From Pseudomonas oleovorans subsp. oleovorans (GTDB taxonomy: Bacteria; Pseudomonadota; Gammaproteobacteria; Pseudomonadales; Pseudomonadaceae), in contig NZ_NIUB01000011.1 of the NCBI RefSeq assembly GCF_002197815.1, positions 62,001 through 126,000 on the forward strand: a DNA stretch of 64,000 nucleotides, in the 5' to 3' direction. Positions 2,418-62,288 of the stretch are shown here, piece by piece. The translations under genes were made by a program, and so were the position numbers. Position 1 is the first letter of the stretch. The number at the start of each line of letters is the position of its first letter. Below the pieces are notes generated by a model. It worked only from the letters and a program-made list of their open reading frames with translations. It made no database searches and was not told the DNA's origin.

Positions 2418-3563
2418 ATGGAATTCGAAAAACTACTGCGTCTGATGGTCGAAAAAGGCGGCTCCGATCTGTTCATCACCGCTGGCGTGCCGCCGTCGAT
2501 GAAGGTCAATGGCAAGATCATGCCGGTGACCAAGAACGCCATGTCGCCGGAAATGACCCGCGAAACCGTGCTGGGGGTGATGAACGAGGCGCAGCGTCGC
2601 GAGTTTGCCGAAAAGCACGAATGCAACTTCGCCATCAGCGCCCGCGGCATCGGTCGCTTCCGTGTCAGCGCCTTCTACCAGCGCAACCTGGTGGGCATGG
2701 TGCTGCGCCGCATCGAGACCAATATCCCCACCATCGACGACCTCAAGCTGCCGGACATCCTCAAGAAGCTGGCGCTGACCAAGCGCGGCCTGGTGCTGTT
2801 CGTCGGGGCTACCGGTACCGGTAAGTCCACCTCGCTGGCGGCGATGATCGGCTACCGCAACAAGAACAGCAGCGGCCATATCATCTCCATCGAAGACCCG
2901 ATCGAGTACATCCACCAGCATCAGAGCTGCATCGTCACCCAGCGTGAAGTGGGCATCGACACCGAGTCCTTCGAAGTGGCGCTGAAGAACACCCTGCGTC
3001 AGGCGCCAGACGTGATCCTCATCGGTGAGGTGCGCACCCGCGAGACCATGGACCATGCCGTGGCTTTCGCCGAAACCGGTCACCTGTGTCTGGCCACCCT
3101 GCACGCCAACAACGCCAACCAGGCGCTGGACCGCATCATCAACTTCTTCCCGGCCGACCGGCAGAACCAGGTGTGGATGGACCTGTCGCTCAACCTCAAG
3201 GCCATTGTCGCTCAGCAGCTGATTCCAACCCCAGATGGTAAAGGTCGCCGCGCGGTGATCGAGGTCCTGATCAACACCCCGCTGGCCGCCGACCTGATCC
3301 GCAAGGGCGAGGTGCACGAGCTCAAGGGCCTGATGAAGCGCTCCACCGAGCAGGGCATGCAGACCTTCGACCAGGCGCTGTACAACCTCTACACCCAGGG
3401 CGAGATCACCTACGAAGATGCGTTGCTCTACGCCGACTCGGCCAACGACCTGCGCCTGATGATCAAGCTCGGTTCGGAAACCGATGGCGATCACCTGACC
3501 AGCATGGCTCAGGGGTTGGCGCTGGAGGTCAGCGAGGAAGATCCGGGGCGTCGCTTCCGCTGA
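2418..3563 (+). CDS. pilU: PilT/PilU family type IV pilus ATPase PilU
   Basis: The second retraction ATPase, which assists PilT. It has 381 residues with Walker A GATGTGKST at 130-138, Asp box ISIEDPIEY, Walker B VILIGEVRT and His box GHLCLATLHA. The C-terminus is extended relative to PilT (ends around LALEVSEEDPGRRFR), as is usual for PilU. The AIRNLI motif of PilT is replaced by a divergent sequence (LINTPLAADLIRKG). Its last 35 bases overlap the end of the convergent DUF4130 gene on the other strand. Confidence 0.96.
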   Translation: MEFEKLLRLMVEKGGSDLFITAGVPPSMKVNGKIMPVTKNAMSPEMTRETVLGVMNEAQRREFAEKHECNFAISARGIGRFRVSAFYQRNLVGMVLRRIETNIPTIDDLKLPDILKKLALTKRGLVLFVGATGTGKSTSLAAMIGYRNKNSSGHIISIEDPIEYIHQHQSCIVTQREVGIDTESFEVALKNTLRQAPDVILIGEVRTRETMDHAVAFAETGHLCLATLHANNANQALDRIINFFPADRQNQVWMDLSLNLKAIVAQQLIPTPDGKGRRAVIEVLINTPLAADLIRKGEVHELKGLMKRSTEQGMQTFDQALYNLYTQGEITYEDALLYADSANDLRLMIKLGSETDGDHLTSMAQGLALEVSEEDPGRRFR

Positions 3564-4416
3564 CGCTGGCTGACGGGGGACGCGATGCGTCCCCTTCGTT
3601 TATCTGGACGATGCGTTTGCCCTTTCTGCCGGCCAGCACCAATGCCTGGCCATCGCGCTGCGCGCCGGCGCGTGCTTCGCTCATCAGTTGCGGAATCAGT
3701 GGGCCTTCCGGCAAGTGCTTCCAGAACCTCAGTGGCAGATGCTGCTGCATCACCGTGCGGTTTAGGCGTGCCGGGTTGAAGGTGCTGCCGTAATAGGCGC
3801 GCCACAGGGCCTGGCCGTCATCCTCGGGCTGCTGTGCCCAAGCCTGCCATTGTACCGGGCAGCGGCGTTCGTGCTGCAGGCGCTGGCCATCCCAGTACAC
3901 GCCGTCACGCGGCGTGGCGATCAGCCAGCTGTGTTTGCCCAGGCGTTCGGCGAAGTGCCCGCTGGCCGAGGCGAGAATGTCATGCGCGGGTTCGAACCAG
4001 GCGACGAAGTCCGGCGCGTCAGGGGTTTTGCATGGCTGGAAACGCACGAAGGCATGCAGGTGATGCGCCTCGCGGCGCACCGCCTTGAGCCGGCGATGCA
4101 GCTCGCTGCCGTCCGGATCGCCGGCCAGCACAGCGCTGCGTTCACCCTGCACGAAGCGCCAGAGCACGCGGTAGAGCAGGCTCCAGCGTTCATCGCCGCG
4201 GTACTGGGAGGCACTTCCCAGCAAGTCCAGCAGTTCGGGGGACACGCGCAAGCGACCATTGGGCTCCGGCGCGCGTTCGGCGGGTTGGTCGAACAGGCTG
4301 GGTGGGGCCTCCTCGTCCAGCCATTGCAACTGATCGGGAGCCAGACCCTGCAGCAGAGCACGGCGCGCGGCCTGGCGCCAGGTGGCGAAGCTGCCGTCGA
4401 AGCGCAGGCTGTGCAT
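3529..4416 (-). CDS. DUF4130 / TIGR03915-type predicted DNA metabolism protein
   Basis: A 295-residue cytoplasmic protein of the family that almost always accompanies a radical SAM protein with a DNA-binding tail. Its reaction is unknown. Recognisable stretches are LYRVLWRFVQGERS, HHLHAFVRFQPC, ARLNRTVMQQHLPLRFWKHLPEG and a C-terminal basic segment LVLAGRKGKRIVQIN. I start it at the ATG at 4416, which overlaps the upstream TGA by one base (TGATG), a classic translational-coupling arrangement; two GTG codons just upstream are alternatives. The operon is preceded by a LexA-type box at 5645. The 3' end overlaps pilU by 35 bases. Confidence 0.85.
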   Translation of the reverse strand: MHSLRFDGSFATWRQAARRALLQGLAPDQLQWLDEEAPPSLFDQPAERAPEPNGRLRVSPELLDLLGSASQYRGDERWSLLYRVLWRFVQGERSAVLAGDPDGSELHRRLKAVRREAHHLHAFVRFQPCKTPDAPDFVAWFEPAHDILASASGHFAERLGKHSWLIATPRDGVYWDGQRLQHERRCPVQWQAWAQQPEDDGQALWRAYYGSTFNPARLNRTVMQQHLPLRFWKHLPEGPLIPQLMSEARAGAQRDGQALVLAGRKGKRIVQINEGDASRPPSASVSGSDAPDLPR

Positions 4417-5627
4417 CACCACAACGCCATTTGTGCCGGGGTGTCGCGCAGTTGCTGACGCAGCACCACGGATTCGTGTTCGGCGCGCGGTGGCCGGTAG
4501 TCCTGAGTGACGATAAACGGCTTGGCCTTTTCCAGTACGCAGCGCAGGCGGGTCAGATCCTCGTAGCGGATGCGCCGTTCACGCCGCAGCGCGCCCAGGC
4601 GTCGTGCGCTGAGTACGCCGATGCCGGGTACACGGGCAATCAGTGATTCGTCTGCGCGGTTGAGATCGACGGGAAACTGCTCGCGGTTGGCCAGGGCCCA
4701 GGCCAGCTTGGGGTCGATATCCAGATCCAGGTTGCCGGGGCCGGCGAGCAGCTCCGTGGCGCTGAAACCGTAGCCGCGCATGAGGAAGTCGGCCTGGTAC
4801 AGGCGATGCTCGCGCAGCAGTGGCGGCGCCTCGAAGGGCACGGTCTTGGGGCTCTGCGGAATCGGACTGAAGGCCGAGTAGTAGACGCGGCGCAGGCGGT
4901 AGTCGTGGTACAGGCTCTGGGCGTTGTGCAGGATGGTGCTGTCATCGGTGGCGTCGGCGCCGACGATCATCTGCGTGCTTTGTCCGGCTGGGGCGAAACG
5001 TGGCGCGCGACGTTCTTCCTGGGCCTCGCGCTCGCCGAGATGAATGTTGTGCATGGCCTGGTGGATGCTGCCGACGTTCTTTTCCGGTGCCAGGCGCACC
5101 AGGCTGGTTTCGGTGGGCAGCTCGATGTTGACGCTGAGGCGGTCCGCGTACAGGCCGGCTTCGGCGATCAACTCCGGTGCGGCATCGGGAATGGTCTTGA
5201 GGTGAATGTAGCCGCGGAACTGGTGCTCCTGACGCAGCAGCTTGGCGACGCGAATCAGCTGCTCCATGGTGTAGTCGGCCGAGCGGATGATGCCGGAGCT
5301 GAGGAACAGGCCGCTGATGCAGTTGCGCTTGTAGAAGTCCAGTGTCAGCGTCACTACTTCCTCGGGGGTAAAGCGCGCGCGAGGTACGTCACTGGAACGA
5401 CGGTTGATGCAGTATTGGCAGTCGTACAGGCAGAAGTTGGTCAGCAGTACTTTGAGCAGCGCCACGCAGCGACCGTCTGGCGTATAGCTGTGGCAGATGC
5501 CCATGCTGTTGGTCGAACCGATGCCGTCCTTGCCCTTGGAGCTGCGTTTTGGTGCGCCGCTGCTGGCGCAGGAGGCGTCATACTTGGCGGCGTCGGCGAG
5601 GATGGTGAGCTTTTCGATCAGTTGCAT
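4416..5627 (-). CDS. Putative DNA modification/repair radical SAM protein (TIGR03916-type)
   Basis: Predicted radical S-adenosylmethionine enzyme acting on DNA; substrate unknown. With the start at the ATG at 5627 it has 403 residues. The [4Fe-4S] cysteines are Cys66, Cys70 and Cys73 in CLYDCQYC (CX3CX2C). The C-terminal third carries helix-hairpin-helix DNA-binding sequence (VDLNRADESLIARVPGIG, then SARRLGALRRERR), which fits a nucleic-acid substrate. The downstream partner starts at its stop codon. A box CTGT-N8-ACAG lies 17 bases upstream of this start, so induction by DNA damage through LexA is likely. An in-frame codon at 5636 would add three residues but is less well placed. Confidence 0.87.
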   Translation of the reverse strand: MQLIEKLTILADAAKYDASCASSGAPKRSSKGKDGIGSTNSMGICHSYTPDGRCVALLKVLLTNFCLYDCQYCINRRSSDVPRARFTPEEVVTLTLDFYKRNCISGLFLSSGIIRSADYTMEQLIRVAKLLRQEHQFRGYIHLKTIPDAAPELIAEAGLYADRLSVNIELPTETSLVRLAPEKNVGSIHQAMHNIHLGEREAQEERRAPRFAPAGQSTQMIVGADATDDSTILHNAQSLYHDYRLRRVYYSAFSPIPQSPKTVPFEAPPLLREHRLYQADFLMRGYGFSATELLAGPGNLDLDIDPKLAWALANREQFPVDLNRADESLIARVPGIGVLSARRLGALRRERRIRYEDLTRLRCVLEKAKPFIVTQDYRPPRAEHESVVLRQQLRDTPAQMALW

Positions 5628-5644
5628 GGCGGGCAATATCTATA

Positions 5645-5660
5645 CTGTTTTTTTATACAG
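5645..5660 (-). promoter_or_regulatory. LexA-type SOS box upstream of the radical SAM/DUF4130 operon
   Basis: On the minus strand the site reads CTGTATAAAAAAACAG, a perfect CTGT-N8-ACAG LexA operator for gammaproteobacteria. The dyad extends to TACTGT/ACAGTA. It lies directly upstream of the radical SAM start. Known: LexA binds this consensus in Pseudomonas. Inferred: this operon belongs to the SOS response. A nearly identical site stands at 43300-43315. Confidence 0.8.
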
Positions 5661-5774
5661 TATATGGGCGTCGTACAGCTATCAAGCCATTCGTTGTGTT
5701 GCGCTGCCTCATTGCAAATGAAACCTTCACTCGGCGCGCAGCGTCATAGCTGTATCTCGCACAAGGAGTTCGCC

Positions 5775-6173
5775 ATGCAACGACAGGATACGCACAGCAA
5801 GCTGATTGGCTACCTGCTGTGGATTTTCGGCTTTCTCGGTTCGCACCGTTTCTACTACGGCAAACCGGTCACCGGCACCATTTGGTTCTTCACCCTGGGA
5901 TTGTTCTTCATCGGTTGGATCATTGACCTGTTCCTGATTCCCTCGATGGATCGCGAGGCCGACCTGCGTTTTACCGCAGGTGATACTGACTACAACGTGG
6001 CGTGGATCCTGCTGACCTTCCTTGGCATTTTCGGCGTACACCGCATGTATCAGGGCAAGTGGATCACCGGGATCATCTACCTGTTCACTGGCGGCCTGTT
6101 CCTGATCGGCGTGCTCTACGACTTCTGGACGCTCAATACGCAGATCTCGATCAAGAACGCGCAGCGTGGTTGA
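5775..6173 (+). CDS. TM2 domain-containing membrane protein
   Basis: A 132-residue inner-membrane protein made of two tandem TM2 units, each with a pair of hydrophobic helices around a DRF-like loop. The first runs about 7-60 (GYLLWIFGFLGSHRFYYGK), the second about 73-125 (WILLTFLGIFGVHRMYQGK). The repeated (S/V)HR-YxGK turn is the TM2 hallmark. Start ATG at 5775 with AAGGAG ten bases before it. Role unknown. It is divergent from the radical SAM operon. Confidence 0.88.
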   Translation: MQRQDTHSKLIGYLLWIFGFLGSHRFYYGKPVTGTIWFFTLGLFFIGWIIDLFLIPSMDREADLRFTAGDTDYNVAWILLTFLGIFGVHRMYQGKWITGIIYLFTGGLFLIGVLYDFWTLNTQISIKNAQRG

Positions 6174-61547: not shown

Positions 61548-62288
61548 TCAGCCATCGCCCGGTCGTGGCGTGCGTGCCAGGCAATACACATCGACGCGCA
61601 GTGCGCCCGCGCGACGCAGCAGGTGGGCGAGCACGCCCGCCGTGGCGCCGGTGGTGAGCACGTCGTCGACCAGCGCCAGATGAGCGCCGGCGACCTTGGC
61701 TTGCAGTTCCAGGCTGAAGGCCTGACGCAGATTGCGCTTGCGCGTTGCGGCATCCAGCCCTTGCTGTGCGGGTGTATCGACGCGGCGCTGGAGCCAGTCT
61801 TGTTGCACCGGCAGGTGGAGGCTGGCGCCCAGCCAGTCGGCGAGCATCTGTGCCTGATTGAAGCCGCGTCGTCGCTGGCGCTTGCGGGCCAGCGGCACCG
61901 GCAGCAGCGCCTGTGGTCGTGGCAGGCCTTCGTCATAGGCATGGCTAAGGTGTTCAGCCAGCAGTTCGGCGAGCAGACGACCGTGCGGCCATTGCGCCTG
62001 GTGCTTGAAGCGGGTGATCAGATTGTCGACGGGAAAGGCATAGCGCCAGGGCGCTTCCACACGGCTGAAACTTGGCGGCTTGTTCTGGCAGGCGCCGCAG
62101 ATCATGCCGTGGGCCGGCAATGGCACCGCACAGATCTGGCAGTGCGCACCGAGCCACGGCAACTCGGCCTCGCAGGCCGTGCAGACCACGTGCGTGGGGT
62201 GATCGGTGGTTTCGTCGCAAAGCTGGCAATGGCGGCGCGGTCGCAGCCAGGGGAGGCGTTGCAGAAGGGTTGGGTCGAACAATGGCAT
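61548..62288 (-). CDS. ComF family phosphoribosyltransferase-like protein
   Basis: A 246-residue protein with an N-terminal zinc ribbon of cysteines (CQLCDETT, CTACEAELP, CQICAVPLP, CGACQ) and a type I phosphoribosyltransferase domain with LLPVPLARKRQRRRGFNQAQ and the PRPP loop ALVDDVLTTGATAG. Related to ComF (DNA uptake) and GntX. Found upstream of and divergent from the biotin operon, a common place in gammaproteobacteria. Enzymatic activity unproven. Confidence 0.9.
   Translation of the reverse strand: MPLFDPTLLQRLPWLRPRRHCQLCDETTDHPTHVVCTACEAELPWLGAHCQICAVPLPAHGMICGACQNKPPSFSRVEAPWRYAFPVDNLITRFKHQAQWPHGRLLAELLAEHLSHAYDEGLPRPQALLPVPLARKRQRRRGFNQAQMLADWLGASLHLPVQQDWLQRRVDTPAQQGLDAATRKRNLRQAFSLELQAKVAGAHLALVDDVLTTGATAGVLAHLLRRAGALRVDVYCLARTPRPGDG

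Follow-up and report, generated by a model that had tools for sequence, protein, structure and literature searches.

A radical SAM–DUF4130 operon of Pseudomonas oleovorans with a predicted LexA box conserved among its relatives

The stretch of DNA analysed here, referred to as the window, comprises 64,000 nucleotides of Pseudomonas oleovorans subsp. oleovorans (positions 62,001 to 126,000 of contig NZ_NIUB01000011.1, assembly GCF_002197815.1). On its minus strand lie two genes, one for a radical SAM protein and one for a DUF4130 protein, preceded by a palindrome with the form of a LexA (SOS) operator (Table 1). Both proteins score above the curated cut-offs of their families, TIGR03916 and TIGR03915, and the genes are adjacent and overlapping; nothing sets the pair apart from these families. 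The radical SAM gene ends in TGA (4418-4416), the A of which is also the first base of an ATG of the partner (4416-4414), and the window letters confirm the TGATG overlap at which an initial annotation, made from the letters alone, had placed the start of the partner. GTG codons at 4419 and 4422 are alternative starts. The operon consists of just these two genes, between the box and a gene that we take to be pilU.

Table 1. Predicted features of the radical SAM–DUF4130 locus, in window coordinates
Feature	Coordinates	Strand	Basis
TIGR03915/DUF4130 partner, up to 297 aa, without uracil-DNA glycosylase (UDG) domain	3529..4422	-	TIGR03915 208.6 bits (cut-off 112.25); PF13566 128.4 bits (cut-off 27); start GTG 4422, GTG 4419 or ATG 4416
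Radical SAM protein, 403 aa, TIGR03916 rSAM_link_UDG	4416..5627	-	552.8 bits (cut-off 343.5); PF04055 32.8 bits (cut-off 29.5)
Helix-hairpin-helix part, residues 319-351	4575..4673	-	PF12836 E=0.00088, 19.8 bits, under cut-off 27
SAM-cluster motif C66-x3-C70-x2-C73	5409..5432	-	Invariant in 164 aligned sequences
Cysteines C20, C45 and C54, which may ligate a second Fe-S cluster	5466..5570	-	Invariant in 164 aligned sequences
Predicted LexA (SOS) box TACTGT-N8-ACAGTA	5643..5662	.	Core CTGT-N8-ACAG 5645-5660; similar box before 80/80 named relatives
Possible promoter	5657..5685	-	TTGATA 5685-5680, 17-bp spacer, TACTGT 5662-5657 (left box arm)

The box reads TACTGTTTTTTTATACAGTA on the plus strand at 5643-5662 and TACTGTATAAAAAAACAGTA on the minus strand (5662-5643), where the inner segment 5660-5645 is CTGTATAAAAAAACAG, with the core CTGT-N8-ACAG. 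Seventeen bases (5628-5644) separate the core from the radical SAM start codon (ATG, 5627-5625); sequence and gap are as the initial annotation had given them. The core that it quoted is not significant by itself: one copy is seen in the window and 0.90 are expected. The form with six-base arms, TACTGT-N8-ACAGTA, occurs once in the window with 0.00 expected and none in 100 shuffles, and TACTGT-N9-CAG read on both strands at one dyad has two sites in the 4.85-Mb genome, the window site and one on contig 21. Could the palindrome be a chance occurrence, or an AT-rich promoter dyad that has nothing to do with LexA? The expected count of the core per window would allow it, as would the 36 CTGT-N8-ACAG sites of the genome, where the reversed control has 12; many of the 36 are GC-rich and do not look like LexA boxes. 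It is the comparison with relatives, not the count of the bare pattern, that speaks against chance.

At least 587 relatives were found, and the best 80, from Pseudomonas and allied genera, Burkholderiales and Salinicola, were kept (the named relatives). In all 80, CTG-N10-CAG precedes the start codon by 9-28 bases. Scored out of 20 against the Escherichia coli consensus, these boxes reach 14-19, and at least 15 in 78 of the 80; in the remainder of their 729,419 bases the top score of any CTG-N10-CAG is 14. The controls for these loci gave 1/80 in the stretch from -200 to -100, 0/80 in a coding stretch, and a mean of 1.71 with a maximum of 5 in shuffles. From a wider sample of 398 genomes of the window's phylum, 84 had TIGR03916 above cut-off, and 83 loci besides that of the window genome were examined (30 + 53). 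With start codons chosen by script, a LexA-type box lies within 100 bases of the start in 78 of the 83 (it overlaps the chosen start in L196, L197 and L212); each of three control stretches gave 0/83, and shuffles a mean of 0.5 and a maximum of 2. The initial annotation had made its proposal depend on conservation of the dyad upstream of orthologues, and both sets show it.

The type of repeat changes with the class. Outside the window's class, a GAAC/GTTC-N7 direct repeat is found at 54/54 loci and the CTGT type at 0/54; inside it, 24 of the 29 loci have a CTGT-N9-CAG box and none the direct repeat, and no locus has both. The 54-locus group is called alphaproteobacterial by its motif alone, GAAC/GTTC-N7 being the motif given for that class in PMC8565304. 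Of all the arguments for LexA, the strongest is this switch of repeat type by class while the predicted control persists. With so clean a switch, with the conservation in both samples and with controls at or near zero, chance is rejected as an extremely improbable explanation, and SOS control of the operon by LexA appears very likely from these comparisons.

It is appropriate to ask whether the box belongs to the operon or to its place in the genome. The DUF4130 gene follows the radical SAM gene in all 80 named loci, with a 4-base overlap in 66 of them, and a DUF4130 match is present at 81 of the 83 phylum loci (the stretches examined for L168 and L173 have none). Since only 20 of the 80 named loci have homologues of pilU and of the neighbouring TM2-domain gene in their 4-kb flanks, the box would belong with the operon and not with the genomic place. 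The TM2-domain gene (5775-6173) is divergent, starting on the opposite strand at a distance of about 115 bases, so that the box might serve it instead of, or besides, the radical SAM operon. The 20 loci with a TM2 homologue in their flanks are compatible with such an arrangement, but the remaining 60 keep the box with no TM2 match there, and the spacing of the box is tight to the radical SAM start, which makes the arrangement very unlikely. On the far side of the operon, a terminator-like hairpin at 3575-3595 (plus strand) lies between pilU and the convergent DUF4130 gene; two scanner matches were obtained in this region and 1.9 were expected, so it may be due to chance.

The left arm of the box may also form part of a promoter, a weak proposal given that TACTGT fits TATAAT at just 3/6 positions. 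In the column profile of the 80 loci, CTTG is enriched 17 bp upstream of TACTGT, and columns beyond the box and its edges are otherwise near background; but TTGACA is matched at four or more positions in only 18/80 loci (offset controls, 0-10 of 80). A consensus promoter scanner found no promoter, which counts against the overlay.

The genome of the window has its own lexA (256.8 bits; cut-off 110.95), preceded by boxes of the same type. Of its 36 CTGT-N8-ACAG sites, 24 were scored (15 loci, and 9 sites in 8 stretches chosen by eye as AT-rich), and 12 were left out. A score of 17 is shared by the radical SAM–DUF4130 operon, a PA0069-family radical SAM gene and a divergent gene pair (L128). A yebG-family gene, which passes the Pfam cut-off (91.6 bits) and not that of NCBIfam (39.4 against 161), scores 16, as do two TnpB-like genes; L131 scores 15; an integron integrase, lexA, L126, L127 and L129 score 14; L132 scores 13, and eleven others lower. 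The PA0069-family gene (L003:1501-2594, contig 3; NF033668, 499.7 bits) stands 19 bases behind its strong LexA-type box, and its product is probably a second SOS-controlled radical SAM protein in this genome. The integron integrase gene (L005:527-1516, contig 6; TIGR02249, 403.9 bits) lies 14 bases behind a CTGT-N8-ACAG box. The TnpB-like genes (L130:1532-2796 and L133:1493-1861) begin 7 bases after a LexA-like palindrome, their family being assigned by hidden Markov model for L130 only; here the end of an insertion element and LexA control are equally likely explanations. The second TACTGT-N8-ACAGTA palindrome of this genome (L128:1108-1964) lies between divergent frames of 110 and 132 residues, neither of which has an NCBIfam match; the 110-residue frame has no Pfam match either.

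If the operon is under SOS control, what would its enzyme do? Six cysteines (20, 45, 54, 66, 70 and 73) are invariant across 164 aligned radical SAM sequences, and the first three, outside the SAM-cluster motif, suggest a second iron-sulfur cluster. The C-terminal helix-hairpin-helix part described in the initial annotation is detectable, with a score under the Pfam cut-off. In a structure model with a mean predicted local distance difference test (pLDDT) score of 69.1, and values below 50 at residues 17-31, 40-56 and 67-80, the fold appears to be a radical SAM barrel, with NifB as the best match (Z 12.6) and lipoyl synthase and MiaB also among the matches. LipA and MiaB share an arrangement of three cysteines N-terminal to CX3CX2C. 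The three invariant cysteines in the same position and the fold matches of the model would suit a radical SAM enzyme with an auxiliary cluster, sulfur-inserting or of another kind, that modifies DNA or protein and does not restore a base. However, the fold matches span the barrel common to these enzymes, the model is poor precisely in the cysteine-rich N-terminal part, and neither a fourth ligand nor a source of sulfur was found; we regard an enzyme of this kind as rather unlikely.

A second possibility is that the enzyme reverses a pyrimidine photoproduct directly, in the manner of spore photoproduct lyase. The predicted barrel and the probable SOS control would fit, and DUF4130 has been grouped with "SplB-like" radical SAM photolyases (PMC3765255). 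SplB itself, and two hypothetical betaproteobacterial genes, have been predicted to be under SOS control, SplB in alpha- and betaproteobacteria (PMC3323433). The PA0069-family/SplB-like proteins share with ours the radical SAM domain and a LexA-type box, and one is encoded in the same genome, but they belong to a different family model: among NCBIfam models at E 0.001 only TIGR03916 matched, and no spore photoproduct lyase or PA0069 model did. The three extra invariant cysteines and the separate PA0069-family gene with its own box also argue against photoproduct reversal, which we find improbable. Spore photoproduct lyase is not among the 50 fold matches listed for the model, a result that excludes nothing.

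The DUF4130 partner was modelled with a mean pLDDT of 82.4; Foldseek gave no match at E 0.001, and the best VIA-align Z, 7.9, is at a level that the tool calls typical noise. The upper rows are mostly RecJ, Cdc45 and further chains of the DHH superfamily. An hhalign comparison of DUF4130 with RecJ gave a probability of 0.2-0.3 of 100; it used 16 of 30 RecJ loci, the remaining 14 being set aside for a stop codon within their trimmed translations, and a DHH/RecJ-Cdc45-like fold is a lead only.

Taking a length above 440 residues as the sign of a fused domain, 86 of 162 DUF4130 partners (the window protein, 80 named and 81 phylum) are of the long form, 26/80 among the named relatives and 60/81 in the phylum sample; 54 of the 80 named relatives have the short form, like the window partner. 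TIGR03914 matches all four long proteins that were scanned, above cut-off in three. The fourth is the DUF4130 protein of L032 (L032:5209-6585), whose UdgX domain scores 116.4 bits against a cut-off of 189.95, as if it were decaying. The best match of the fused domain in the PDB is UdgX (6ail, 196.3 bits), with 119.9 bits for the family-4 type 1vk2. GEQPGD and KRRLH motifs are visible in the aligned fused-domain rows displayed, and they resemble the UdgX motifs given in PMC10359453. A quick tree requires at least 10 switches between the long and the short label, and well-supported branches force 4 of these; L167, labelled short though its contig end cuts it, may explain one or two. The UdgX domain seems, from lengths and tree, to come and go among the partners. 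The window partner matched only TIGR03915, not TIGR03914, and the rest of the window genome gave 0 UdgX matches at E 0.001. Therefore, the two-gene core does not seem to need UdgX.

LexA represses its target operons, and RecA-driven cleavage of LexA after DNA damage releases them. We propose that LexA, bound at the box just before the radical SAM gene and possibly overlapping its core promoter, keeps the operon off; that DNA damage would release it through RecA-driven cleavage; and that both proteins, the radical SAM enzyme and DUF4130, would then be made together from their overlapping genes. With its SAM cluster, a probable second cluster and DNA contact through the helix-hairpin-helix, the radical SAM protein would perform a radical reaction on damaged DNA, and DUF4130 would be its substrate-handling partner. 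For the two-gene operon, SOS control and a role in DNA damage together have, in our estimate, a probability of about 0.75. The initial annotation had taken SOS control to point to a radical-based repair or modification of DNA. SOS control itself is strongly supported by the comparisons, and the step to a radical reaction on DNA is reasonable, drawing on the helix-hairpin-helix, the family names and the UdgX fusions.

The UdgX type of UDG cross-links itself to apurinic/apyrimidinic (AP) sites. A fused UdgX domain is present in many DUF4130 proteins, and for that reason our best guess for the substrate, a tentative one, is a lesion related to uracil or to an abasic site. SRAP/YedK-HMCES, an unrelated family, invites a comparison of workings only. 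As an AP-site shield it forms cross-links at AP sites, the activity proposed for relatives that bear UdgX, and it differs from the window pair in having no radical chemistry (PMC9436759). It is tempting to go further and propose a repair machine of a so far undescribed kind: an SOS-induced, two-cluster radical SAM enzyme, guided by DUF4130, that processes abasic or uracil-derived lesions or UdgX-DNA cross-links, with UdgX as an optional lesion-trapping module that is gained and lost while the SOS-controlled core is kept; this fuller proposal is speculative and rather improbable. The operon might instead be an accessory of SOS mutagenesis (translesion synthesis) and not a repair enzyme. From gene neighbourhoods, DUF4130 has been predicted to be an enzyme related to mutagenesis, and it has been linked with radical SAM proteins and uracil DNA glycosylases (PMC3765255). 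The window operon, however, holds these two genes only, and we consider a mutagenesis accessory unlikely.

Several points weigh against an SOS-controlled operon with a role in DNA damage. The relatives are not independent: the named and phylum sets overlap and include many close kin, and the conservation figures are therefore counts, not probabilities. The uracil/AP guess rests on relatives, because the window partner and its genome are without UdgX. The model of the radical SAM protein is of middling quality, Foldseek gave no match to it at E 0.001 or below, and no solved structure is similar to it by sequence. Finally, five of the 83 phylum loci have no recognised box. Three of these (L170, L171 and L175, in genomes G593, G390 and G681) are of one genus and have lexA above cut-off; a fourth, L165 (G649), is in a genome with a LexA-like match of 99.6 bits, under the cut-off of 110.95, and its upstream region is by eye faintly like the dyad before its own lexA-like gene, and is still counted as a miss. 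The genome of the fifth, L134 (G370), has no full LexA (62.8 bits over residues 83-202; same cut-off), an absence that counts on the side of SOS control.

In place of a known LexA box, L170, L171 and L175 have a conserved palindrome, GTCTCATCCAATGAGAC (one mismatch in G593), ahead of the radical SAM start. It could be another operator in that genus, but it does not occur in the 1,500 bases before the lexA matches of these three genomes.

How do these proposals compare with what has been reported? We equate COG4277 with TIGR03916. SOS control of the COG1573-COG4277 pair has been predicted in Bacteroidetes, with reports cited for Verrucomicrobia and Alphaproteobacteria (PMC8565304). That is the same kind of pair under LexA, differing from ours in that the window partner has no UDG half, its operon carries a LexA motif of the CTGT type and the organisms are of another group. 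SOS control of this pair is therefore already known in kind, and the idea is less novel than the initial annotation implied. For Pseudomonas, no report of LexA control of the pair was found in the literature searched, including PMC12706794, PMC9578287 and PMC8307549, with key regulon studies outside that scope. Genes labelled "DNA repair photolyase SplB" and UDG are up-regulated in P. fluorescens (PMC5435343); an unspecified radical SAM gene belongs to the Streptomyces LexA regulon (PMC9380542); and PMC5554334 is a chromate/uranium screen in P. stutzeri. The UdgX papers PMC10359453 and PMC10776899 mention neither radical SAM, nor SOS, nor an operon, and the former does not mention DUF4130. No description of the chemistry of the pair was found in the literature searched.

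The family is widespread in the genus of the window, with TIGR03916 in 210 of 298 genomes sampled. On mobile elements, matches were obtained on one IMG/VR contig, in 158 plasmid records (of these, 142 are predicted to be non-mobilizable, 9 mobilizable and 7 conjugative; the 20 listed are all larger than 200 kb) and in 10 phage records, of which 8 are unannotated faecal contigs. A reading as phage cargo was not adopted.

What is added here, and was not found in the literature searched, is the extent of the predicted control in Pseudomonas, Burkholderiales and their relatives, its persistence where there is no UdgX, and the three additional invariant cysteines. LexA control that is kept across classes with different LexA repeats would tell when the cell needs the pair. 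To our knowledge, very few radical SAM enzymes act on DNA, spore photoproduct lyase being an example; if this operon does carry out a radical reaction on damaged DNA, its radical SAM protein would join them.

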